From positions 1 to 45,380 of the IMG/VR virus record IMGVR_UViG_3300047121_000414: a DNA stretch of 45,380 nt. The stretch is one strand, 5' to 3'. A model generated the notes under the pieces. It was given only the letters and a program-made list of their open reading frames with translations. It did not search any database and had not been told where the DNA came from. The position numbers and the translations under genes were made by a program. The DNA comes from a virus. Shown here one piece after another: positions 8,019-43,511 of the stretch (positions are counted from its first letter, which is position 1; every line of letters begins with the position of its first letter).

Positions 8019-8456
8019 ATGATCCACTCCCAGAACCATAAGGTCGTTGCGAACCTCGAGTCGGCCGCTGTCGGCGCGACCGCGACCGCCACGCTGACGA
8101 TCGACACCATCGGCTACGATCACGCCAGCGTGACCGTGCTGCGGGCCAGCAACGCCAGCACGGTGTTCGCGAACGTCGTGAAGGTCGAAGAGTCAGACGA
8201 CAACTCGTCCTACTCGAACGTCACTGCCCTGGTGGGCGGCGGCGTCGGCGGCTTCTCGATCCCGGCTGTCACTAGCACGGCCCTGACGTCCGTCCTCAAG
8301 CTGGACATCGACACGAAGGCCAAGAAGCGCTACCTGAAGGTGTCCTACACGCCCGGCGCCACGGCGAACGTGGCGATGGTGGCCCGCCTGGGTCGTGCCG
8401 AAGAGTCGCCCGTGTCGAACTCCGACGCTGGTGTCATCGGCCGATTCGTTGGCTAG
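8019..8456 (+). CDS. small virion protein, possible capsid decoration or head accessory
   Basis: 145 residues, rich in Ala, Val, Thr and Ser with alternating beta-strand character and no catalytic motif. The segment IDTIGYDHASVTVLRAS followed by VEESDDNSSY resembles small beta-sandwich proteins often found just after phage capsid genes. Position suggests a head decoration or fibre-like accessory protein, made together with the capsid. An AACAGGAG ribosome site precedes the ATG. The exact family was not recognised. Confidence 0.8.
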   Translation: MIHSQNHKVVANLESAAVGATATATLTIDTIGYDHASVTVLRASNASTVFANVVKVEESDDNSSYSNVTALVGGGVGGFSIPAVTSTALTSVLKLDIDTKAKKRYLKVSYTPGATANVAMVARLGRAEESPVSNSDAGVIGRFVG

Positions 8457-8526
8457 TCCCGTACAAGCGGGACGGCCATGACGGCCGACAAAGGCGCAAG
8501 GATGCGCGCCCGCTCCTCACAAGGAG
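8456..8526 (+). terminator. cluster of hairpins after the capsid operon
   Basis: GTCCCG/CGGGAC (8456-8461 with 8468-8473) forms a 6-bp stem; GGCC-ATGAC-GGCC, GCGC-AAGGAT-GCGC and GCTCCT-CACA-AGGAGC follow. None has a T-tract, so they may be processing or stability elements rather than classical terminators. The last stem hides the AGGAG ribosome site of the following glycosyltransferase gene, which could limit its translation. Confidence 0.45.
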
Positions 8527-8532
8527 CGAACC

Positions 8533-9261
8533 ATGCTGCTGCGTGTCGGTAATTGTGAAGCCGAGGTGAAGGTAGCCGCTCTGATGAGCGTCCCTCGCCT
8601 CGGCTTCACTGATAATTTCTTCTGCATCTCGCAGGCTCTCGCGCCGCACGGGATCGCCCCGATCAAATACACGGGCGCGTTCTTCGGTCAATGCCTCCAG
8701 CGGTGCATGGAACAGGTCGTCGACACGCACGACGTCGTGCTGACGATCGACTATGACACGATCTTCACCGCCAAGACGGTGGAAGCGCTCCTCGCCCTCC
8801 TGATGCACTCGGGCTTCGACGCCCTCGCTCCGCTTCAGACCAAGCGGGAGGCGAACACGGTGATGTTCGCCCTGCCTGGGATCACGCCGGACGAGAAGAC
8901 AACGGTCGAAAACGACTGGTTCCAGAAGGTCGTCCAGCCCGTCGAGACAGCGCACTTCGGCTGCACGTTCATCCGCACCGCGGCCATCAAGAAGATGGCG
9001 AAGCCGTGGTTCCTGGCCGAGGCCAATGACGAAGGGACGTTCACGGGCGGCCATATCGACGAGGACATCTACTTCTGGAAGAAGTTCGCCGCCAGCGGGA
9101 ACCGCCTGGGCATCGCCACCAACGTCAGCGTCGGCCACGCCGAACTGATGATCACCTGGCCCTCCAGGAGCGTCGAAGGCGGCAAGGTGCAGCAGCACAC
9201 GACGGAGTTCTGGAACAACGGGAAGAAGCCGCCGGAAGGCGCCTGGGGATTCGTGCCATGA
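8533..9261 (+). CDS. glycosyltransferase-like protein, GT-A type
   Basis: 242 residues. An early AALMSVPRLGF segment is followed by LTIDYDTIFTAKTV near residue 70-80, where DYD fits the DxD metal and nucleotide-sugar binding motif. A second acidic patch, GGHIDEDIYFW, lies near residue 175, followed by VGHAEL. The pattern suits small phage-encoded GT-A transferases that use a nucleotide sugar; the acceptor is unknown (virion protein, host glycan or DNA). Its place between capsid and connector genes, behind a hairpin cluster, is typical of an inserted accessory gene. Its ribosome site is inside a small hairpin. ATGA overlap joins it to the next gene. Confidence 0.72.
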   Translation: MLLRVGNCEAEVKVAALMSVPRLGFTDNFFCISQALAPHGIAPIKYTGAFFGQCLQRCMEQVVDTHDVVLTIDYDTIFTAKTVEALLALLMHSGFDALAPLQTKREANTVMFALPGITPDEKTTVENDWFQKVVQPVETAHFGCTFIRTAAIKKMAKPWFLAEANDEGTFTGGHIDEDIYFWKKFAASGNRLGIATNVSVGHAELMITWPSRSVEGGKVQQHTTEFWNNGKKPPEGAWGFVP

Positions 9262-11435: not shown

Positions 11436-12196
11436 TGGCTCTGACGCAAGGCTTCGGCGCGGCGCGCATTCTTGATGATGGGCAGACGTCCGTTCAGTCG
11501 GCCAACCAGTTTGTGACCGTGAGCACGGCCGGCGCTCGCGACCTTGTGTCCAGGTTTCTGGAGCTTGCCACCGCTGCCTCCGCTCCGTCGGTGCTTCGCA
11601 AGGCAGTCCGTAAGGCGTCCGACCCGCTGATGAAGGACTACGAGGCGAGGGCGAAGTCGCACGAGGCGACAGGAAACCTGTCGGCGTCAGTGACGCGAAA
11701 ATACGTCGACTACCCCGAGGGCGTCGTGGCCGTCGTCGGCCCCCGCCAGACAGGGCCAGTCGGATCGACATCCGACAAGCGGTCTGGAAACCACGCATGG
11801 TTGGTGGAGTTCGGAACCGACGCCAGAAAGCCAGGAAGCCGAGGCCGCCGCGTTTACGTTAACGTCCACCAAAGCATCAACCGTCGGATGCGGAAGTCTG
11901 GCTCGTTCAATAACACACAGTTCGAGCAGATGGGGCGTGGATACTACTTCCTCATGGGAAGTATCAACGAGCCGAGCCGAAGGAACGGCAAGCCGGGATA
12001 CTCGCGAGACTTCGCCGGCCCCGGCCCAGGCGGTGACGGACGAAAGCAGCATCCGATCGCGCTGGCCCCAGGCGAGACGATCGCGCCGATGAAGCCGCTG
12101 GGCCTGATGGAGAAGTCGATCTCGGCCACTGGGGCTTCCGTCCTGGCGGTCTTGCGGTCGACGTTGGAAGCCGAAATCAACGCGAGGGGCGGATGA
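11435..12196 (+). CDS. HK97 gp10-like tail completion protein
   Basis: 253 residues, longer than the usual 120-170. The core around residue 50-130 (VLRKAVRKASDPLMKDYEAR then TGNLSASV, VVAVVGP and HAWLVEFGT) matches the HK97 gp10 family, which helps finish the tail or neck. A C-terminal addition of about 100 residues with basic and Gly-rich stretches follows. The start at 11435 uses the TGATG junction with the head-closure stop. Some codons are less GC-rich in the middle. Confidence 0.83.
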   Translation: MALTQGFGAARILDDGQTSVQSANQFVTVSTAGARDLVSRFLELATAASAPSVLRKAVRKASDPLMKDYEARAKSHEATGNLSASVTRKYVDYPEGVVAVVGPRQTGPVGSTSDKRSGNHAWLVEFGTDARKPGSRGRRVYVNVHQSINRRMRKSGSFNNTQFEQMGRGYYFLMGSINEPSRRNGKPGYSRDFAGPGPGGDGRKQHPIALAPGETIAPMKPLGLMEKSISATGASVLAVLRSTLEAEINARGG

Positions 12197-12618
12197 TCAT
12201 CAAGCCCGAGGACTACGTCTACTACCGTCTGACGAGCGTCCCGGCGGTCGCCCGACTCGTCGGCTTCAACGTCTACCCGATCGCCGTGCCGAAGTCGGCG
12301 GGGTTCCCGTTCATTGTCTACAAGCGGCAGAACATCATCCGCGAGACGACGCTGTCGGGGCCGCTCTACGTCCCGCTCTTGTCGATCCAGATCGCCTCCT
12401 GGGCGCTCACCCACGACGCCGCCAGAGAGTTGGGGGACGAGGTGCGGCTTGCTCTGGATGGCAACACCGGCACGGCAATGGGGGTTACAATCAGTGATAT
12501 GAGGCTCGTCAGCGAAACTGACGATTTCCTCGATCCTACGGCCGTCGGAGCACAACTCCCGCCGGCTTACGAGGTCAGGCAACTGTATCAGATCAGGTGG
12601 CAAGAGGCCGCCTCGTAA
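12193..12618 (+). CDS. tail terminator-like protein (DUF3168 type)
   Basis: 141 residues. The N-terminal helix with VYYRLTSVPAVARLVGFNVYP, the FPFIVYKRQ strand and the PLLSIQIASWA strand are the layout of DUF3168 / gp17-like tail completion proteins, which cap the tail tube at its head-proximal end. The order relative to the gp10-like gene and the tail tube supports this. A GATGA overlap couples it to the previous gene. The stop lies within the next promoter-like element. Confidence 0.85.
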   Translation: MIIKPEDYVYYRLTSVPAVARLVGFNVYPIAVPKSAGFPFIVYKRQNIIRETTLSGPLYVPLLSIQIASWALTHDAARELGDEVRLALDGNTGTAMGVTISDMRLVSETDDFLDPTAVGAQLPPAYEVRQLYQIRWQEAAS

Positions 12619-12637: not shown

Positions 12638-12657
12638 GGCGCAAGGAGGCGCGACTC

Positions 12658-12993
12658 ATGGCAGGCGTTTCGGCACAGGGACTCACGTTCTCGTTCGGCG
12701 GGTCCAACCTCACGGTCACCTCGGTCCAGGTCAATGACACCCAAGACCTCATCGACGGCAGCCACCTGGGCATCGCCCCGAACGGCCGTCGGGAGTACGT
12801 CGGTGGCTTCGCGACCGACCGCGAGGTGCAGATCGACTACATCTCCACGAACATCCTCACGGCCGGCGTGTCCGGTTCTCTGTCGATCTCCGGCCCGATC
12901 TCGTTCAGCGGCAACGCGACCATCGCGTCGTCTTCGATCGGCGGTTCTGTCGGCGCCCTTGTCTCCGGGAGTGCGACGTTCCGAGTCGCGTAA
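12658..12993 (+). CDS. tail tube-like protein, copy 1
   Basis: 111 residues. It begins MAGVSAQGLTFSFGG, almost the same as the next gene, and continues as a beta-rich protein with VNDTQDLIDGS and a final SATFRVA. Position right after the tail terminator and before the G/GT chaperones is that of the major tail tube protein, though it is smaller than most (usually 140-250). AAGGAGG is well placed for the ATG. The family assignment rests on position and fold-like pattern, not on a recognised signature. Confidence 0.65.
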   Translation: MAGVSAQGLTFSFGGSNLTVTSVQVNDTQDLIDGSHLGIAPNGRREYVGGFATDREVQIDYISTNILTAGVSGSLSISGPISFSGNATIASSSIGGSVGALVSGSATFRVA

Positions 12994-12996
12994 GCG

Positions 12997-13380
12997 ATGG
13001 CGGGATTCGCTGCCCAAGGGGCAACATTCACGTTCGCTGGCTCCCGCGGCAACTTCCAGGGAGCCGTCGTCGGGATCAGCGTCGAGACGCCGGTCGCGGA
13101 GGTCGTCGATATGACGTCTCCGAGCGACCCTTCTGGGACGTCCATCCTTGTCCCGACGGGCGAGTGGTCTGGCGGGAGCATCTCCCTGGACTTCATCGCC
13201 ACGCCGGCGACCGGGGACGTCCAGGACATCGTCAGGGGCATCGGCCAACTGACGTTCGCATCGCCCCAGTGGACGGTGACGCGACGAGCAATTCTTGAGT
13301 CTGCCAGTACGGAGGCTCGTGTCGGGGAGTCGGTGCGAGGGATCGCAAACTTCAGAGTTACAGATTACGCAGGAACCTGA
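12997..13380 (+). CDS. tail tube-like protein, copy 2
   Basis: 127 residues, a diverged duplicate of the preceding gene: both begin MAG-x-x-AQG-x-TF-x-F, carry a V-D-x-T/S segment near residue 30-40, and end with an ANFRV or ATFRV strand. It follows after only three bases. The two may build a mixed tube, or one may be the tube and the other a tail-end or decoration protein. No ribosome site stronger than a weak one is visible, so coupling to copy 1 is likely. Confidence 0.65.
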   Translation: MAGFAAQGATFTFAGSRGNFQGAVVGISVETPVAEVVDMTSPSDPSGTSILVPTGEWSGGSISLDFIATPATGDVQDIVRGIGQLTFASPQWTVTRRAILESASTEARVGESVRGIANFRVTDYAGT

Positions 13381-13383
13381 TTC

Positions 13384-13758
13384 ATGGCGTTGAGCAAGGC
13401 GAAGATTCTGGCGGCGAAGGATGTGAAGTTGTCCGAGGCGGTCCCGGTCCCCGAGTGGGGCGGTGACGTCTACATCCGCACCATCAGCGGCACCGAACGC
13501 GACAAGTTCGAGGAAGCCTACAGCGAGCAGAAGATGAAGGCGTTCCGCGTTCGCTTCCTCGTGATGACGCTGGCCGACGAGTCCGGTGAGCGGCTGTTCG
13601 CCGACGCCGACATCGACGCCCTCGGCGGCAAGTCCAGCGTCGTGATCAACCGTCTCTTCGACAAGGCGTGGCAGCACAACGCCTTCACCGACGAGGCCGT
13701 GGATGCGCTGGGAAACGGTTCACCGACCGCCCCGAGCGAAAGTTCTACTTCGACCTAG
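13384..13758 (+). CDS. tail assembly chaperone, lambda G-type
   Basis: 124 residues. VYIRTISGTERDKFEEAYSEQ and a following helix FRVRFLVMTLADE with LFADADIDALGG are the pattern of G-type chaperones (TAC) that coat the tape measure during tail assembly. It lies between tail tube and tape measure. Near its end, codons CTG GGA AAC contain the slippery heptamer GGGAAAC at 13710-13716, which allows a -1 shift into the T reading of the next frame, as in lambda. Confidence 0.88.
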   Translation: MALSKAKILAAKDVKLSEAVPVPEWGGDVYIRTISGTERDKFEEAYSEQKMKAFRVRFLVMTLADESGERLFADADIDALGGKSSVVINRLFDKAWQHNAFTDEAVDALGNGSPTAPSESSTST

Positions 13759-25068: not shown

Positions 25069-25129
25069 CCCCGTGTAGCACGCCCCGTGAGGCCCATAGA
25101 GGCCCGCAACGCACAAGGAGGTGCCTGCG

Positions 25130-25483
25130 ATGGAACCGAAGATTCGGCGGAAGTTCAAGGCTCTCCCCGTCACGCTGTCCACGGCGACCGCTGCGGCCAC
25201 CACGATTCGCTGGGACGACATTGCCGGCGGCGCGGTGCTTCTCGGCACCGGCGCGACCGCAGCCACCTCGATTCAACTCTGGTGCAGCGGCACGACAGAC
25301 GGCACGTTCGGCCGGCTCTATGACGCCAGCGGCAGTGCGGCCGACATCACCTTGGCCCAATCGGCCACCGAGGCCCGCGTTTACGCCCTCCCCGACGCCG
25401 CCTACGGCGTCGGAGCGCTGAAACTCGTCGCCGGCCAAGCCGCCGGCACGGCGGTGTCGTGCGTCGTCCTCCTCAAGACCTGA
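25130..25483 (+). CDS. small beta-rich phage protein
   Basis: 117 residues. The ATG at 25130 is chosen because AAGGAGG lies at 25115-25121. The protein is rich in Ala, Thr and Gly with predicted beta strands (TIRWDDIAGGAVLLGTG, IQLWCSGTTDGTFGRLYD) and a final Val-Leu strand. It resembles small structural or tail-associated proteins of environmental phages; no catalytic motif. It begins a transcription unit that includes a membrane protein and the fibre gene. Confidence 0.75.
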   Translation: MEPKIRRKFKALPVTLSTATAAATTIRWDDIAGGAVLLGTGATAATSIQLWCSGTTDGTFGRLYDASGSAADITLAQSATEARVYALPDAAYGVGALKLVAGQAAGTAVSCVVLLKT

Positions 25484-30276: not shown

Positions 30277-30301
30277 CCTGTAGGCTGCTTGTCCGATACA
30301 T
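30273..30301 (+). promoter_or_regulatory. TTGACC-N17-ATACAT promoter with CTGC spacer motif
   Basis: TTGACC (30273-30278) and ATACAT (30296-30301) are spaced by 17 bases; the recurring spacer motif appears as CTGC at 30285-30288. It overlaps the stop of the double-HTH gene. It would drive the helicase and following DNA-metabolism genes. Confidence 0.55.
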
Positions 30302-30324
30302 TCCTCCACGCTCATGGAGGAATG
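30299..30324 (+). promoter_or_regulatory. 10-bp inverted repeat covering the helicase ribosome site
   Basis: CATTCCTCCA (30299-30308) and TGGAGGAATG (30315-30324) are perfect complements around the loop CGCTCA. The right arm holds GGAGG, the ribosome site of the helicase gene. In read-through RNA it would hide this site; at the DNA level it overlaps the promoter start point and could be a repressor operator. Confidence 0.6.
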
Positions 30325-30327
30325 CCA

Positions 30328-31707
30328 GTGCTTTGGCAGCATCAGGAAGACGCGATTCGCTGGGCGCTCGACCGCCAAGCGGCGATTTGGCATCACGGGA
30401 TGGGGTCGGGCAAAACGCGGACGGCGCTTGAGTACCTGCGCCGGATCGGCGCGAACCGAACGCTCGTCTGCTGTCCGAAGGCCGTGATCCCGGCCTGGAG
30501 CAAGCAAATTGGGATGTGGTTTCCCGAATTGCGCGTTGTCGCGCTCGAGCAGAACGGCTCGGCAGCGAAGGACAAGGCAGTCGTGGCTGCCCTGGCCGAC
30601 ACCTCGCCGGTCCTCGTCATCACCAACTACGAGAGCGCGTGGCGGCTGAAGAGCGTCGAAAAGGCGAAGTGGGACTGTTTCGTCTGGGACGAGATTCACC
30701 GTCTCAAGAGCGCCACGGGCGTGGCGAGCCGCTGGGCGGCGAAGATGGTGAAGAACAACCCGACGGCCCGCCGCCTCGGCCTCACCGGCACGCTCATCCC
30801 GCACTCGATCCTCGACGCCTGGGCGATCTACCGGGCCATCGAATCGCCGACCTGCGAGACGTTCGGGACAAGTTACACGCTCCACAAGGCCAACTACGCC
30901 ATCTTCGCCAACGGGCCACAGAAGTTCGTGGTCGGCTTCAAGAACCTGGCCGTCGCCAACAAGAAGATCGCGGCCACGACGCACTACGTTCGCACCACCG
31001 ACGTCATAGACCTCCCGCCGATCTCGTTCCACGACGTTGCCTGCGACCTGTCGCCGAAAGAGTCAAGCCTCTACCGCGAGGTGGAGAACGAGTTCTGTGC
31101 GATCTGCGACTCCGGCTCGGTCACGCCGAAGAATGCCCTTGAGCAACTTCTCCGGCTCCAACAAATCTGCGGCGGCTATGTCAGGTTCGATGACGAAAAA
31201 ACTGCGTCGCGAATCGACGAGCATCCGGCCAAGGCGAAGATGCTGTGTGATATGCTGGAGGACTTGCCCGCGTCGGAGCCAGTAGTGATTTTTTGCCGGT
31301 TCAAAAGCGACATCGAGGCGGCGAAGAGCGTCGCCGAGGCTCTGGGGCGGAAGGTCAGCGAACTGTCTGGCGACCGCAACGAACTGGCCGATTGGCAGCA
31401 AGCACAGACATCTGTTCTCGTCGCGCAGATTCAGTCGGGCGGCATTGGCATCGACCTGACGCGGGCGGCCTACTGCTGGTTCTACAGCCTCGGCTACTCG
31501 CTCGCGGAATACGAGCAGGCCGTCGCGCGGTTGCACCGCCCAGGCCAGACAGCGAAGACCGTCATCTACCACCTTGTCGCAACGATCAGCGGCCGATCCA
31601 CCGTGGACGGCCGGGTCTATGCGGCACTTCGTGAACGCAAGGAAGTCGTGAATGAACTCATCACAGGCTACAAGCACAGACAGCACGCTCTCAACCGTGC
31701 TCGCTGA
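30328..31707 (+). CDS. SNF2-family DNA helicase/translocase
   Basis: About 460 residues. Motif I HHGMGSGKT (about residue 25), motif II WDEIH (about 122), motif III LTGTLIPHS (about 152) and in the second domain motif V GGIGIDLTRA with motif VI QAVARLHRPGQ (about 405) identify a compact phage SNF2 helicase. Such proteins likely remodel DNA-protein complexes during replication or repair. GGAGG at 30316-30320 is seven bases before GTG 30328, better than its single base from ATG 30322, so GTG is preferred; ATG 30322 adds two residues. Confidence 0.9.
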   Translation: MLWQHQEDAIRWALDRQAAIWHHGMGSGKTRTALEYLRRIGANRTLVCCPKAVIPAWSKQIGMWFPELRVVALEQNGSAAKDKAVVAALADTSPVLVITNYESAWRLKSVEKAKWDCFVWDEIHRLKSATGVASRWAAKMVKNNPTARRLGLTGTLIPHSILDAWAIYRAIESPTCETFGTSYTLHKANYAIFANGPQKFVVGFKNLAVANKKIAATTHYVRTTDVIDLPPISFHDVACDLSPKESSLYREVENEFCAICDSGSVTPKNALEQLLRLQQICGGYVRFDDEKTASRIDEHPAKAKMLCDMLEDLPASEPVVIFCRFKSDIEAAKSVAEALGRKVSELSGDRNELADWQQAQTSVLVAQIQSGGIGIDLTRAAYCWFYSLGYSLAEYEQAVARLHRPGQTAKTVIYHLVATISGRSTVDGRVYAALRERKEVVNELITGYKHRQHALNRAR

Positions 31708-32101
31708 AATCGCCGCCATCGATAAGCAGATGGTCGAGGCCAATGACCGCATCGACCAACTTAAGGCTCGCCGCCAGCACCTCGAGTCGCTGGCCGTCGA
31801 GGAGATGACGACACAACGCCTGGACGGAGTCAGGGTTGCAGGGAGGTCGTGGAGGGTCGAGTTCGACCACTTCATGTCGGTTACGGAAGACCGCAAGGAG
31901 GCCGTCATCGAAGCGGCGAAGGCTGCCGGCTGCTGGAAGCAGTTGGAAAGCGTCAACACCGCTCGGCTGAAGAGCCTCCTGCGTGAGATGGCGAAGGAGG
32001 CGGGCAAGGACGCCCGCTCCTCCCACTCCGAAGGCACCCCGTTCGCTGGTCTTGTCGGGGAGCACGTTGCCCCCCGGCTGCGTCATGTCACGGTTGGCTG
32101 A
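31652..32101 (+). CDS. coiled-coil phage protein
   Basis: 149 residues. Residues 15-50 are a strongly predicted coiled coil (IAAIDKQMVEANDRIDQLKA). A small basic beta segment RVAGRSWRVEFDHFMSV and a helix with REMAKEAGKDA follow. It starts 56 bases before the helicase stop, with GGAAG upstream. Similar coiled-coil proteins often sit beside phage recombination or replication genes. Function unknown; it may be a helicase partner. Confidence 0.75.
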   Translation: MNSSQATSTDSTLSTVLAEIAAIDKQMVEANDRIDQLKARRQHLESLAVEEMTTQRLDGVRVAGRSWRVEFDHFMSVTEDRKEAVIEAAKAAGCWKQLESVNTARLKSLLREMAKEAGKDARSSHSEGTPFAGLVGEHVAPRLRHVTVG

Positions 32102-33057: not shown

Positions 33058-33103
33058 CCCCTCCCGGCCCCTGCGACTGCGGGGCCGGGAGGGGGTCTTT
33101 ATC
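33058..33103 (+). terminator. strong terminator-like hairpin, 14-bp stem
   Basis: CCCCTCCCGGCCCC (33058-33071) pairs perfectly with GGGGCCGGGAGGGG (33081-33094) around TGCGACTGC and is followed by GTCTTTAT. It ends the helicase transcription unit. The 145 bases before it (32914-33057) contain no gene; CCCGTC/GACGGG near 32980 could be part of a small structured RNA, but this is not established. Confidence 0.8.
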
Positions 33104-33119
33104 CAAACGGAGTTGGATC

Positions 33120-33437
33120 GTGAAGTTCACCAACAACGAAAAGTCCTACAGTCGAAACAGGAGGCTCTTTAGGGTCGTCTCCTGGTACTGGGAACTCTTG
33201 GAGTCACGCGGTTTCGGCCAGGACCGAGACGGCAAATACGCCGGCCTGGCGCCGCTCCCGCGATGCTCGACGCCCATCGTCGAAGTCAACGACCACAAGG
33301 GGCGTCTCACCGTTTACTGGAATGGCGAGCCTAGCGCCGACGAGAAGCGGTTGATGGAGTTGGCCTGGGTCCATGTCGGCGAAGAGGAAGCATCGGACGT
33401 TTCCCATGTCATCGAGGAGGTGTGCAGTGGCATTTGA
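33120..33437 (+). CDS. small protein before the primase
   Basis: 105 residues from GTG 33120, with GGAG eight bases upstream. The N-terminus is basic (NNEKSYSRNRRLFRVVSWYW), then strands around STPIVEVNDHKGRLTVYW and a helix with DEKRLMELAWVHV. No known family. It overlaps the primase gene by 11 bases and is probably coupled to it. Confidence 0.7.
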   Translation: MKFTNNEKSYSRNRRLFRVVSWYWELLESRGFGQDRDGKYAGLAPLPRCSTPIVEVNDHKGRLTVYWNGEPSADEKRLMELAWVHVGEEEASDVSHVIEEVCSGI

Positions 33438-35232
33438 GTTCGACCCAGACGCCATGTTCAAGGCGTGCGCCCACTACCTGTCGAAAGGTCTAGTCCTCGT
33501 CCGCGTCCACGGCATCTACCCAGACGGCAGATGCACATGCGGCAACCCAGAACACGCCATCGGCAGGGCCGGAGAGCGTAGCGTCGGCAAGCACCCAGTC
33601 GGCACAGACTGGGGCAACCGATGCGCAACGACAGAGGATCAGATTCTGGAATGGCTCGAGGACGGGATTCCGTTCAACGTCGGATGCTTGATGGGGCCGC
33701 GTGGCGGCGTGATCGACAGCGAAGACGACTCCATCGAGGCGAGGAACTACCGCAAGTCGATCGGCATGGACGGCCTGGAAACGCCGACATGGACGAGCGG
33801 AAAGTCCACGCACCAGTTGACGCGATGGGATGACCGGCTCGCCGACTGCAAGGGGACTGACGAGCCTGGCGGCCTTGAGGTTCGCATCGGGGCAGGCGCT
33901 GCCGCGATACAAAGCGTCCTTCCTCCGTCGTGGCACCGCTCCGGTGTGCAGTACGAGTGGAAGCCCGGTTTCACACTTGAAGACGTCGACATCGCGCCGA
34001 CGCCAAAGGAACTCCTCGTCGCCCTGTGCAACAACGTGGGCCGTGGAGCCGGCAGGAAGCAGGAGGGGCCGGTAAGCGCCATCCTGTTTGGAGAGATACC
34101 AGACGGAAAGCGGCACCGGGCGATCCTCCGCTGGACATGGTGCAAGATCGTCAACCAGCGCAACCCGCTGGATCGGATGCAGCAGGAGATATTGACCCGC
34201 GAGGTCATGCTGCTCGCGGAGCACAACTGTCGACCGGCGGCCGACCCGGACCACGTTCGCAACATCATCTCTGACTGCTACGAGCACTACCGCAGGAAGT
34301 CGGAAGCCGGATGGAAGCCAACGGACGATGATTGCACCGAGAAGGCTACCGAGGCTGAGATCACGACGATCGAGCGGGCGGCCGACGAGGAGGCGAAGCC
34401 GAAGGGGCCGCGTGCCGGCAGTGCCTTCGAGCTTTACGGACTCAAGCCTGTGTCGTCGAAGAACGACGCATACGAGCCGGGCGACTGGAGCATCGAGATG
34501 ATCCACTCCGACCCGCCGGAGATCGTCCTGGTTGTCCCCGCGTGGAAATACACCGCCTGCAAGGGCAGAATCCACATGACGCTGGACACGTTCAGGTCCG
34601 CGCCGAAGGTCGCATCTGCGGTATTCAACGCCACCAGGACGTACATCCTCGACGGAGACGGTGGCCGGTGGCACCGAATCTGGAAGGGCCACGACGGCAC
34701 CAAGGAGAACGGCTACGTCAGCACGCCGGGCCTGATGGAACTCCTCATGCAGAAGAAGCGCGAGGAGGATGACATCGAGGTCGGAACCTCCAGCCTCCGG
34801 TACGCCCAACTGGCGGCCTACGTCCTCCAGTCATTCAAGAAGGCCACGAAGCCGCGAGACGAGGAGAAGCCGGAGCCGAACGAGTCTGGACGGCCATGTT
34901 GGGTGACGCCCGACGAGTTGTGGTTCCAGTGGGGGAAGATTTGGGAGGAGATCGGGACGGCCCACGACGTCGCTCCGGGGGAGCGGAACAGGGTCAGGGC
35001 GAAACTCCTTGACGCAATGGCCGCCAGGGATTTCCCGCACAAACGGCACCGCTTTCCAATCGGCCGGCTTGAGTACGTCGTCTTCACCAGGGAGTGGGTG
35101 GCGGCGCTCGAGTCGCTGGCTTCGGGGGCTGAAAACGAATTGCCGGTAAAGGGGGATGGCGATAGGGGGGGCGCCGAAACCGAAAATCACTCACCGTCCA
35201 CCGTCAGTTCGCTGGAAGTTGTTGTTGCATAG
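33427..35232 (+). CDS. bifunctional primase-polymerase (prim-pol)
   Basis: 601 residues from GTG 33427, with GAGGAGG six bases before it. The N-terminal domain has the prim-pol order: YLSKGLVLVRVHG, a small CTCGNPEH site, SVGKHPVGTDWGN, TTEDQILEWLEDG, GVIDSEDDS (catalytic acids, about residue 92-100) and SVLPPSWHRSGVQYEW. It makes primers and may copy DNA. The rest, rich in charged residues, has no P-loop, so the helicase normally fused to or beside such primases is missing here. A C-terminal DUF-like domain (LWFQWGKIWEEI, VRAKLLDAMAARDFPHKR) may bind DNA. Confidence 0.86.
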   Translation: MAFEFDPDAMFKACAHYLSKGLVLVRVHGIYPDGRCTCGNPEHAIGRAGERSVGKHPVGTDWGNRCATTEDQILEWLEDGIPFNVGCLMGPRGGVIDSEDDSIEARNYRKSIGMDGLETPTWTSGKSTHQLTRWDDRLADCKGTDEPGGLEVRIGAGAAAIQSVLPPSWHRSGVQYEWKPGFTLEDVDIAPTPKELLVALCNNVGRGAGRKQEGPVSAILFGEIPDGKRHRAILRWTWCKIVNQRNPLDRMQQEILTREVMLLAEHNCRPAADPDHVRNIISDCYEHYRRKSEAGWKPTDDDCTEKATEAEITTIERAADEEAKPKGPRAGSAFELYGLKPVSSKNDAYEPGDWSIEMIHSDPPEIVLVVPAWKYTACKGRIHMTLDTFRSAPKVASAVFNATRTYILDGDGGRWHRIWKGHDGTKENGYVSTPGLMELLMQKKREEDDIEVGTSSLRYAQLAAYVLQSFKKATKPRDEEKPEPNESGRPCWVTPDELWFQWGKIWEEIGTAHDVAPGERNRVRAKLLDAMAARDFPHKRHRFPIGRLEYVVFTREWVAALESLASGAENELPVKGDGDRGGAETENHSPSTVSSLEVVVA

Positions 35233-36950: not shown

Positions 36951-37423
36951 ATACCCTACTGTTCGACACATTCATCCCGCCGGAAGAACAGAAACCGTCG
37001 AAGCAAAAGCGCGCGCGCGCGACTGCCGGCCCCCAGCCGGAGGCTGAAGCAGCCCAAAAAAAGCCTCTTATATTTAGGGACATTCGCCCCCTCGGCCGTA
37101 TCGACCACACCTACGCCTGTGCCGACGATGCCTGCGGAGCCGAGTGCCACGACATCCTCGACGAGGATCGCGGCCGGTGGCTCCTGGAGTGCTGTTTCTG
37201 CGGCACGAAGCAGGAGGCGAAGGCGATAGCCGGCGTCATCCAGGAGCCGGCGCCTGACGCATTCCGGTTCCGCGACGGCCGCTACGCCGGCCAGACGCTC
37301 GACGAGGCTGCCGCCACGCCGCGGGGAGCCGACTACCTCGCGTGGGCGGCCGAGAGCCACCCGAGGCCGGCGGTTCGCGAGGCGGTGAAAACTTGGCTTG
37401 CCAAGCGGTCTGGCGGTCTGTAG
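36947..37423 (+). CDS. Cys-containing protein with exonuclease-tail-like domain
   Basis: 158 residues. After a basic, Lys/Arg/Ala-rich start (a GCGCGC microsatellite codes RARA) comes a Cys motif: YACADDACGAECHD with later LECCFCGTK, a likely zinc site. The end, FRFRDGRYAGQTLDEAAATP followed by YLAWAAES, resembles the small domain found at the C-terminus of some ExoX-like exonucleases (G-K-Y-x-G-x-T/S, DYLxW). Function is uncertain. ATGA overlap with the helicase suggests joint action. Confidence 0.72.
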   Translation: MNTLLFDTFIPPEEQKPSKQKRARATAGPQPEAEAAQKKPLIFRDIRPLGRIDHTYACADDACGAECHDILDEDRGRWLLECCFCGTKQEAKAIAGVIQEPAPDAFRFRDGRYAGQTLDEAAATPRGADYLAWAAESHPRPAVREAVKTWLAKRSGGL

Positions 37424-37441
37424 GCTACTACCCACGACAAC
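37421..37441 (+). promoter_or_regulatory. CTAC-N7-GACAAC element before csrA
   Basis: CTAC (37425-37428), seven bases, GACAAC (37436-37441), overlapping the upstream stop TAG. A start seven bases later would remove part of the csrA ribosome site, so for this copy either TAGGCT (37421-37426) serves as the -10 or the element is an operator. Confidence 0.35.
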
Positions 37442-37454
37442 GGAAGGAGCCGTT
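37439..37454 (+). promoter_or_regulatory. hairpin with GGA loop over the csrA ribosome site, probable CsrA site
   Basis: AACGG (37439-37443) pairs with CCGTT (37450-37454) and leaves the loop AAGGAG, which is the Shine-Dalgarno of csrA (ATG at 37459). GGA exposed in a hexaloop on a short stem is the classical target of CsrA proteins, so the protein may repress its own translation. Confidence 0.65.
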
Positions 37455-37458
37455 TCTC

Positions 37459-37620
37459 ATGCTCGTCATCACGCGCCGCAAAGGCGAGAAGGTTCAGATC
37501 GGGCCTGACATCGAGGTCATGGTCACGCGAGTCGCCGACGGCCAGGTGCGTCTGGCGATCAAGGCACCGGACACGACGAAGATCGTGCGGTCGGAGTTGC
37601 AGCAACAGGTGCGGACATGA
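37459..37620 (+). CDS. csrA: CsrA-family RNA-binding regulator
   Basis: 53 residues. MLVITRRKGEKVQIGPDI, then VMVTRVADGQVRLAIKAP, and a helix VRSELQQQV match CsrA, including Arg6-Arg7 in beta-1 at the conserved RNA-binding place and the G-QVR-x-x-I-x-AP core. The helix is shorter than in host CsrA (about 60-70 residues). CsrA dimers bind GGA in leader RNA and change translation or stability. In a phage it may control its own late or early genes, or override host carbon and motility control. Its ribosome site forms a CsrA-type hairpin. Confidence 0.93.
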   Translation: MLVITRRKGEKVQIGPDIEVMVTRVADGQVRLAIKAPDTTKIVRSELQQQVRT

Positions 37621-40745: not shown

Positions 40746-41036
40746 ATGGCGCACCGGCCGCTCGAGAAGACGATCGTCGCGAAAGTCATCGCTGCCGCAA
40801 GGCAGCGGGGCTGGTGGGCAATGAAGACGCACGGCAGTGCGTTCGGCGTTGCCGGCCTGCCGGATGTTCTCGTGATCAAGGGCGGTCGTGCGGCGTGGAT
40901 GGAAGTGAAGCGGCCGGGCGAGAGTCCGACGAGGATTCAGGAGCACCGGATGCGGGAGTTGGCGGCGGCGGGCTGCCCGGTGGCGGTGGTGACGAGTGCC
41001 GGTGACGCCATCGAGTTTCTTGAGGGTATCAAGTGA
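40746..41036 (+). CDS. VRR-NUC family nuclease
   Basis: 96 residues. The order E (PLEKTIVAKVIAA), G-LPD (AGLPDVLVI, about residue 36-44), and E-x-K (WMEVKRPGE, about residue 51-59) with IQEHRMREL is the VRR-NUC PD-(D/E)XK nuclease. Phage versions resolve branched DNA. An ATG at 40742 is out of this frame. It is the first gene of the long operon and overlaps the aminotransferase by GTGA. Confidence 0.9.
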   Translation: MAHRPLEKTIVAKVIAAARQRGWWAMKTHGSAFGVAGLPDVLVIKGGRAAWMEVKRPGESPTRIQEHRMRELAAAGCPVAVVTSAGDAIEFLEGIK

Positions 41037-42130
41037 TCTACTGCGGGCAACCTGACATCGGCGTCGCGGAGGAGTCCGCGGTGCTTGAGGTGCTGCGCGG
41101 TGGGCAACTGACTCGCGGCCCAGTCGTGGCCGAGTTTGAGCGGTTCTTCGGCGGCATCAACGGCCTCTATATGCACGCCGTCTCGAGCGGGACGGCCGCC
41201 CTGCACCTGGCCCTCCTGGCGGCCGGCGTCGGTCGTGGCGACGAAGTCATCGTCCCAGCGACGACGTTCGTGGCGACGGTGAACGCGGTGCTCTACTGCG
41301 GCGCGAAGCCGGTGGTGGTGGACGTCGATCCGAGGTCGTGGACGATCGACCTGGACGAGATGGCCCGCGCCGTGACGGAGAAGACGAAGGCGATCATCCC
41401 AGTGCATCTGTACGGCGTGCCGGCGCCCTCGCTGAACGACTGGAAGGTCGACTACTACCGCTCGACGGGCCGGCGGATCGTCATCATCGAGGACTGCGCC
41501 GAAAGCATCGGGTGCCTCCGCAGCGGCTGGGCGCCGGCTGCGGACATGAACTGCTACTCGTTCTACGGGTCGAAGACGATCACGACCGGCGAGGGCGGCG
41601 CCGTCGGCACGCAGGATAAGCTCTTCGCGGAGCGGATCGCCCACCTCGCCGGCCAGGCGATGACGCCGACCCGGTACGTCCACGACGCGCTGGGCTGGAA
41701 CTACCGGATGACCGAGGTGCAGGCCGCCATCGGCGTGGCGCAGTTGGCGCGGCTCCCAGAGTTCCTGGCGAAGCGGCGGCAGGTGTTTGAGTGGTACAAC
41801 GCCCGCCTGCCCGACGAGTTCCGCCGGCAGGCGGTGGCGAAGGACGACACCCACGGCTACTGGGCGTTCGCGGTGGTGGGGGGATACGGCCGCAGCCTCG
41901 ACCCCCGTCGCGTCGAGCGGCTGATGCTCGAGGACGGCATCGAGACGCGGCCGATCTTCCCGCCCGTCTGCCACTTCCCGCATGTGCAGGAGAAGTGCAG
42001 AGCGGGCCGCACGCTCGTCGCCGCCGCGCTGTACCGGCACGGCCTCGTCCTGCCGACGCACACCAGCCTGACCGAGAACGATGTGGAGAAAGTATGCGCA
42101 AGCCTCGTAAAAGCCGCGTCCTGTTCGTAG
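41033..42130 (+). CDS. DegT/DnrJ/EryC1/StrS-type sugar aminotransferase
   Basis: 365 residues from GTG 41033. VSSGTAALHLALLAAGVGRG and DEVIVPATTFVATVNA near residue 50-85, VDVDPRSWTID, IIEDCAESIG (Asp and the PLP ring) and SFYGSKTITTGEGGAV near residue 178-192, whose Lys binds PLP, identify a full-length class member. Such enzymes aminate nucleotide keto-sugars for surface glycans or natural products. The phage has no nucleotide-sugar dehydratase in the window, so the substrate would come from the host. It overlaps the ATP-grasp gene by 37 bases. Confidence 0.93.
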   Translation: MIYCGQPDIGVAEESAVLEVLRGGQLTRGPVVAEFERFFGGINGLYMHAVSSGTAALHLALLAAGVGRGDEVIVPATTFVATVNAVLYCGAKPVVVDVDPRSWTIDLDEMARAVTEKTKAIIPVHLYGVPAPSLNDWKVDYYRSTGRRIVIIEDCAESIGCLRSGWAPAADMNCYSFYGSKTITTGEGGAVGTQDKLFAERIAHLAGQAMTPTRYVHDALGWNYRMTEVQAAIGVAQLARLPEFLAKRRQVFEWYNARLPDEFRRQAVAKDDTHGYWAFAVVGGYGRSLDPRRVERLMLEDGIETRPIFPPVCHFPHVQEKCRAGRTLVAAALYRHGLVLPTHTSLTENDVEKVCASLVKAASCS

Positions 42131-42963
42131 GCGGTGGCCGTCGGGTGTCTCTGGCGAATGAGTTCATCGCCCGAAACGCCGACGTCTACGGCTACGAGTC
42201 GAGCATCGACGTCCCCTTGGCCGACGTTGCCAAGGAGATCGTCGAAGGCATGGACTTCGATGACCCCGAGTGCGGCCCCGACATCCTCGAGTTCGCCGCT
42301 CGCCGGAAGATCACGCATATCGTTCCGCTCATGGACGAGGCCACGGTGGTGTGCGGTGACATGGAGCAGTGCATCGGCTCGCCGGCCGCCGTGGCGATGC
42401 TCTGCCACGACAAACTCCACTTCGCCAACTGGATGAAGGAGCACCACCCCGACGTCTACCCGGCCCCGCGGTTGACGCGGTATCCGAAGTTCGCCAAGCC
42501 CAGGTTCGGCCACGGCTCCCGCGGGACGAAGGTGCTGCACCGCCCCGAGACAATCGAAATGTCGGCGTCGTGGGTGATCCAGGACTACCTAGACGGCGAC
42601 GAGGTGTCGGTCGACCTGTTCCTGGGCGCCGGCCAGTGCCGTGGCGCCGTGGCCCGCAGCCGCGACCGCGTCGAGGGCGGCGAGGTCATCGAGTCGACGG
42701 TGCTCGCTCCCGAGGCGTCGGTGAACTACCTGATCGACGCCGCGGCGGTGTGTGCGGACTTAGGCGTCGTCGGGCCGGCGAACGTGCAGTTCAAGGGCGG
42801 GAAGATCATCGAGGTCAACCCACGTTTCGGCGGCGGCAGCGTCCTGTCGATCGCCGCCGGCCTGCCGCTGGTGGCCCTGGCCCTCGGCCACAACGTGGAC
42901 GGCCCGCCCTGGAAGATCGCGCCGCTGACAATGCGGCGATACCACGCGGAGAGTTTTCGATGA
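42094..42963 (+). CDS. ATP-grasp ligase, carbamoyl-phosphate-synthase-like
   Basis: 289 residues. An N-terminal nucleotide-fold start (VLFVGGGRRVSLANEF), KPRFGHGSRGTKVL (ATP phosphate loop, about residue 137), WVIQDYLDGDEVSVDLF and EVNPRFGGGSV (metal site, about residue 242) make a PylC/CarB-like ATP-grasp core. These enzymes join a carboxylate to an amine or similar. GGAGAAAGT precedes the ATG inside the aminotransferase gene. With an aminotransferase and methyltransferase it may modify an amino sugar, though the acceptor is not evident. Slightly short for the family. Confidence 0.88.
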   Translation: MRKPRKSRVLFVGGGRRVSLANEFIARNADVYGYESSIDVPLADVAKEIVEGMDFDDPECGPDILEFAARRKITHIVPLMDEATVVCGDMEQCIGSPAAVAMLCHDKLHFANWMKEHHPDVYPAPRLTRYPKFAKPRFGHGSRGTKVLHRPETIEMSASWVIQDYLDGDEVSVDLFLGAGQCRGAVARSRDRVEGGEVIESTVLAPEASVNYLIDAAAVCADLGVVGPANVQFKGGKIIEVNPRFGGGSVLSIAAGLPLVALALGHNVDGPPWKIAPLTMRRYHAESFR

Positions 42964-43511
42964 GTGAGTCGCTGATTGACGCCTACAAGCTCGACTGCCT
43001 CGTGGCACTCCTCGAGTCGACGGACACACTCGACGGCGACATCGTTGAGGTCGGCGTCTACAAGGGGGGCAGCGCTCGAGCAATCGTCGACAACGCCGGA
43101 CAGTCAAAGGTCTTCCTGTTCGACACGTTCACGGGAATGCCGAATCACGACCCGACGCTGGACGGGAGGTGGGGCGTTGGCTCGTTCAGTGACACGAGCG
43201 CCGTGGCGGTCATGGATATGTTCTACGGCGACAAGCGGGTGAGCGTCTACCCCGGCGTCTTCCCTACCGAGACGGGCCACGTTCTCGCCGGCCGCCGCCT
43301 GCGGTTCGTCCATCTGGACGTCGACAACTACGAGTCCTACGCCGCGTGCCTGGACTTCCTCTACGAGCAAGTTGTCCCCGGCGGCCTCCTCGTGTTCGAC
43401 GATTACGGCGAAGACTGCTGCCCCGGCGCGAAGGCTGCGGTGGACGAGTTCTTCATCGGCCACGCGCAGGTGGTGATCGAAGGCCCGGTGGTGTATGTGG
43501 TGAAGCCATGA
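42960..43511 (+). CDS. TylF/MycF-type methyltransferase
   Basis: 183 residues. GDIVEVGVYKGGSARAI (SAM site, about residue 23-39), LFDTFTGMPNHD, FVHLDVDNYESY (about residue 118) and GGLLVFDDYGEDCCPGA are the pattern of the TylF/macrocin O-methyltransferase family, which often methylates sugar hydroxyls with Mg2+. It is shorter than TylF proper (about 250) because the N-terminal region is reduced. ATGA overlaps couple it to both neighbours. Confidence 0.88.
   Translation: MSESLIDAYKLDCLVALLESTDTLDGDIVEVGVYKGGSARAIVDNAGQSKVFLFDTFTGMPNHDPTLDGRWGVGSFSDTSAVAVMDMFYGDKRVSVYPGVFPTETGHVLAGRRLRFVHLDVDNYESYAACLDFLYEQVVPGGLLVFDDYGEDCCPGAKAAVDEFFIGHAQVVIEGPVVYVVKP

Follow-up and report, generated by a model that had tools for sequence, protein, structure and literature searches.

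In Escherichia coli, translational inhibition underlies the autoregulation of csrA, and the ANGGAN hexaloop has been identified, including by SELEX, as a high-affinity target of CsrA and RsmE (PMC7652899). Autoregulated csrA genes and ANGGAN sites are thus already known in bacteria, as are csrA genes in phages: a survey published in 2020 reported thirty phages carrying such a gene, the purpose of which was not known and for which target RNAs were not proposed (PMC7366521). A literature search on the function of phage-encoded CsrA returned nothing beyond this survey, and no described phage genome combining csrA with conserved canonical sites on the phage's own messages was found.

The locus described here is located in a single virus record of 45,380 bases, analysed over its whole length (hereafter, the window), the + strand of which encodes terminase, portal, protease and capsid proteins and a replication module, as well as a CsrA-family protein (Table 1). 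As with rsmM of the Pseudomonas aeruginosa phages F116 and phi297 (PMC7366521), the csrA gene is carried by a tailed phage, and its product shares about 50 % identity with the proteins of these two phages. F116 (NC_006552) also contains a second annotated CsrA-like gene, F116p47 (33363-33569), in its structural module, besides F116p24. In common with the E. coli csrA and glgC systems (PMC7652899), the locus includes a CsrA-family protein and a loop GGA overlapping or adjoining the Shine-Dalgarno (SD) sequence, with csrA itself a putative target. The A-N-GGA-N loop, short stem and SD within the loop are likewise features of the hcnA site bound by RsmE (2jpp; PMC7652899), binding in the phage being a prediction. 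Unlike the E. coli Csr system, the protein and its putative targets, virion genes included, occur together on one phage genome. Decoy RNAs of the CsrB/CsrC/RsmZ type had no Rfam match in the window, in a search that is blind to undescribed decoys.

Table 1. Features of the csrA locus and of the conserved hairpin sites in the window
Feature	Position	Strand	Basis or detail
csrA, CsrA-family RNA-binding protein, 53 aa	37459-37620	+	PF02599; start ATG 37459-37461
csrA leader hairpin AACGG-AAGGAG-CCGTT, SD inside ANGGAN hexaloop	37439-37454	+	sequence, conservation
Structured leader behind the capsid cluster, between ORF 8019-8456 and ORF 8533	8457-8529	+	
Hairpin GCGC-AAGGAG-GCGC at SD of ORF 12658-12993	12639-12652	+	loop from 12643
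Putative major tail protein gene	12658-12993	+	gene position; without direct family match
Hairpin GCAC-AAGGAG-GTGC at SD of late ORF 25130-25483	25111-25124	+	loop from 25115
Hairpin GCGGGC-AAGGAC-GCCCGC inside ORF 31652-32101 (DUF7307-like)	32000-32017	+	
Hairpin ATCCAA-ACGGAG-TTGGAT at SD of GTG ORF 33120-33437	33101-33118	+	loop from 33107

The phage-encoded CsrA protein

The csrA product matches PF02599 over residues 1-52 of 53 (E 4.7e-20; 71.7 bits against a cut-off of 27), and scores 60.8 where the NCBIfam equivalog model requires 70.1. Judged by these profiles, it is a member of the CsrA family, and not a certified orthologue of cellular CsrA. The closest solved chains are those of CsrA, RsmA and RsmE, and R6, R7 and R44, together with I4 (conservative, in the L4 region), fall within a gap-free alignment with CsrA and RsmE. 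The predicted monomer (pLDDT 79.5, moderate confidence) has a TM of about 0.8 against CsrA and RsmE structures and fits the RsmE/hcnA structure. A preliminary description of this DNA had named loss of Arg at the RNA-binding edge in relatives as counting against its reading; R44 and R6 are kept, their equivalents being invariant among the near relatives of the protein. The phage protein is thus a CsrA of canonical, minimal form. Among the cellular proteins retrieved with phage-protein patterns, the nearest relatives are the products of chromosomal Nitrospira csrA genes, with up to 60 % identity.

Towards the right end of the phage, a DegT/DnrJ/EryC1/StrS aminotransferase and a TylF-like methyltransferase are encoded at 41033-42130 and 42369-43511, and these are possible sugar-modification genes.

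The csrA leader hairpin

The preliminary description had placed the GGA of the csrA SD in the loop of a hairpin, and this proved exact: AACGG (37439-37443) and CCGTT (37450-37454) form a perfect 5-bp stem around the hexaloop A-A-GGA-G (AAGGAG, 37444-37449), which contains the SD and is followed by TCTC and the ATG. Taken alone, this hairpin is weak (-4.2 kcal/mol), SELEX-derived CsrA targets likewise having short stems (PMC7652899). Locally, the sequence does not fold better than shuffled versions of itself (z 0.89), and folding energy was dropped as proof of the hairpin. As stems of at least 4 bp around six bases arise by chance at about 0.65 % of positions, a lone hairpin before csrA would be suggestive at most, and the z value in particular agrees with a chance palindrome around one SD that has been over-read.

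The relatives argue otherwise. Two scans for close csrA relatives yielded twenty viral loci, and the SD forms an ANGGAN hexaloop in the leaders of all twenty, within stems of AACGG/CCGTT (shortened to 3-4 bp in a few) or (G)CTGA/TCAG(C). Loci L012 and L016 encode CsrA proteins that are one residue apart, yet have two different leader stems. Wider scans added TCCGA/TCGGA, ACGGA/TCCGT, AGGA/TCCT and GAGG/CCTC, and at least six different stems, re-paired by compensatory changes, occur across the wider clade. Among twelve distinct 16-mers, 88 % of cells are paired and both sides change in four of five pairs, with a covariation of 0.758 against 0.208 after shuffling (0/500 shuffles as high), which vanishes when the pairing partners are slid. 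Some of the whole-stem switches may represent recombination between csrA leader versions, with the hairpin still being kept. Because it is conserved with compensatory change, the hairpin can be taken as real, and the re-paired stems, together with the genome-wide enrichment of A.GGA. alone (see below), refute the chance palindrome, to which we assign a negligible probability.

Stems of only 2 bp are found in the csrA leaders of L374/L375 and of the G044/G048 type, and the hexaloop hairpin is absent from the more distant phage csrA leaders L022-L024, L376-L379 and L385-L389. The negative autoregulation of csrA put forward in the preliminary description thus gains strong support at the sequence level, with the hexaloop in each of the nearest loci and new stems elsewhere. 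SD hexaloops are also present before chromosomal csrA genes, in the form GCC-AAGGAA-GGC with a 3-bp stem in many Nitrospira (L027-L081) and GCAAC-AAGGAG-GTTGC in a planctomycete (L088), which suggests that csrA autoregulation through an SD hexaloop may extend beyond the Gammaproteobacteria.

Enrichment of A.GGA. hexaloops

Hairpin sites were defined as A.GGA. in a six-base loop closed by a stem of at least four Watson-Crick pairs, and all hexaloop motifs of the form X.YZW. were ranked, so that the motif was not chosen after the fact. On the coding strand of the window 10/185 A.GGA. sites lie in hexaloop hairpins, against 1.2 expected from all positions, an over-representation of about 8-fold (p about 6e-7 for the window alone), and the motif ranks first of 200. 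It likewise ranks first of 256 on the coding strand of thirteen dereplicated csrA phages (84 seen against 14.3 expected), with pooled p-values overstating the significance since the pooled genomes are related and not independent, and ranks only 34th on the opposite strand. By loop length, the enrichment is found for six-base loops with A in the first position and not for loops of five, seven or nine bases. Some excess occurs in eight- and ten-base loops, where the motif is mostly near the centre, as expected of hexaloops with non-Watson-Crick closing pairs. The pooled hairpin sites are located 3-15 nt before a start codon in 48 of 84 cases, compared to 623 of 2204 for other A.GGA. sites. The enriched motif agrees with the ANGGAN preference established for RsmE and by SELEX (PMC7652899). 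It ranks 100th, without excess (8 against 7.0 expected), in five actinophages of comparable G+C, and the csrA-bearing phages F116 and phi297 also show no A.GGA. hexaloop enrichment.

The further suggestion of the preliminary description, that other leaders with GGA in hairpins may be CsrA targets, is borne out in kind by the genome-wide enrichment and the conserved hexaloops described below, but not in the example given. At 30299-30324 the GGA is paired within a 10-bp stem, and this stretch was rejected as a loop-type CsrA site. The 10-bp hairpin (30299-30330) sequesters the SD of an SNF2-type helicase gene, with GTG 30328 as the probable start, and a simple pattern search showed it in only two other contigs.

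Conserved hairpins at structural, late and replication genes

The hairpin before the putative major tail protein gene is kept in 79/79 relatives with leader sequence (two with a G-U pair), with varying flanks. This gene is flanked by a phrog_347 tail terminator (12193-12618) and a phrog_344 tail assembly chaperone (13384-13758), and its product has no named relatives among deposited phages. The structured leader behind the capsid cluster comprises a hairpin, GCGC-AAGGAT-GCGC (8494-8507), followed by an SD, AAGGAG (8521-8526), that is paired with CGCTCCT (8511-8517). The fold of 8440-8545, which spans this leader, has a z of -4.39, and the leader has no match in Rfam. Twenty-eight distinct versions in relatives conform to GCGC-A[AT]GGAN-GCGC, in which the N bases vary and the A and GGA are constant. 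As their stems are nearly invariant, the hairpins at 8494 and 12639 are without covariation support. Also within this leader, AGCGGG (8466-8471) can pair with an upstream CCCG or with CCCGCT (8509-8514) by the SD-sequestering hairpin. From its sequence the leader could be a two-state switch, and its layout resembles both the leaders subject to repression (glgC, psl) and those subject to activation (ymdA) (PMC7652899).

Nearly all subclade A relatives keep the hairpin at the late ORF 25130-25483, while those of subclade B are without it. Four genomes (G007, G008, G009 and G018) contain GCAC-AAGGAG-GTGC in front of a gene whose product includes ...YGAG(M/F)P...; this site was not seen among the hairpin sites of the window and is a candidate further member of the regulon. 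Two more window hairpins, at 13338 and 3458, are also candidates.

In the replication module, the hairpin at 32000, which is situated within a coding sequence, occurs in 26/27 genomes with five stems, the loop always being ANGGAN. The stems in relatives are GCTGGC/GCCAGC, GCGGGG/CCCCGC, GCCGGC/GCCGGC and ACCGGC/GCCGGT, and covariation amounts to 0.320 against 0.121 after shuffling (0/500 as high). The compensated positions entail the amino acid changes R-S, A-P, R-G and A-T, which points to selection on the RNA, beyond that on the protein alone. ORF 33120-33437, with a hairpin at its SD, is the first gene past a G+C-rich terminator-like stem. In the relatives G006, G015 and G016, among six genomes in which the leader of the primase gene could be used, other ANGGAN stems enclose the SD of that gene, which belongs to the same unit as this ORF.

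A number of these sites fall on SDs, in which AAGGAG is common. The hairpins could accordingly serve merely to present the SD in a loop for ribosome access, or to stabilise the RNA, with CsrA uninvolved. However, conserved copies occur away from SDs, at 8494-8507 and within the coding sequence at 32000-32017, the loop A and GGA are fixed with both N positions free, the enrichment is confined to the six-base loop with A first, and other phages, which use SDs too, are without the signal. A role of the hairpins without CsrA is consequently considered very improbable.

Which CsrA may read the sites

The A.GGA. signal extends to subclade B, in which seven contigs (G053, G055, G056, G058, G059, G061 and G062; 24-38 kb) without a csrA match contain 22 A.GGA. 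hairpins, against 4.4 expected. These include caga-AAGGAC-tctg and gaga-AAGGAC-tctc, with paired changes, before homologous genes starting MTATATKPKVSSTT. Because these relatives share the enrichment, the phage CsrA is not needed for all of the sites, and because related phages without detected csrA carry the hairpins too, a host protein may be the reader. Host CsrA might even be the main reader, in which case the leaders would obey a growth-state signal of the host, and the phage csrA would have been acquired later, to strengthen or override that signal. The presence of csrA in many bacteria and the SD hexaloop of the same type in Nitrospira and planctomycete csrA are consistent with this. 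It presupposes, however, a host CsrA, and a host search with the tail protein among 392 Planctomycetota gave no match (a search without positive control). Furthermore, csrA was detected in 8/28 subclade A as opposed to 0/11 subclade B contigs (one-sided Fisher p 0.05; many are fragments), and the two phages of P. aeruginosa, itself CsrA-bearing, are without enrichment. A main role of the host protein is therefore regarded as unlikely, while a possible contribution alongside that of the phage CsrA is part of the reading preferred here.

A proposed CsrA regulon

CsrA, that of the phage and possibly also that of the host, is considered the probable regulator of csrA and of a set of further phage genes, acting through the predicted hexaloop sites. 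The sequences show the protein family, the hairpins, their conservation and their specificity for A.GGA. hexaloops; from these we infer CsrA binding, repression rather than activation, its timing, and which CsrA, phage or host, would be the main reader. CsrA dimers would bind the ANGGAN hexaloop hairpins in phage mRNAs, and would compete with 30S subunits at the SD hexaloops of csrA, 12658, 25130 and 33120. With the SD of csrA itself forming the hexaloop, CsrA bound to this message would block the ribosome and so limit its own synthesis. Members of this small regulon would be the putative major tail protein gene, the gene behind the capsid cluster, the late gene 25130 and several replication-module genes. 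In the simplest working model, CsrA, encoded in the replication and probably early module, would restrain translation of selected virion genes until transcripts outnumber it, and the strong hairpin within the coding sequence at 32000 might serve to titrate CsrA. At 8457-8529, which combines an upstream hexaloop with a sequestered SD, CsrA could either repress or activate.

The fuller picture is of a large uncultured phage family with a phage-encoded CsrA regulon, comprising an autoregulated CsrA, at least five conserved ANGGAN hairpins distributed over structural and replication genes, among them one in a coding sequence as a possible sponge or timer, and virion translation gated by CsrA titration; this we favour by a small margin over its not holding in full. 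The likely purpose of a phage csrA can here be read from sequence, as conserved and compensated putative CsrA sites on phage messages. If true, the phage programme would include a layer of post-transcriptional control exerted through a global regulator borrowed from bacteria, and the unbiased loop-motif scan would provide a general test for phages that use CsrA, be it their own or that of the host.
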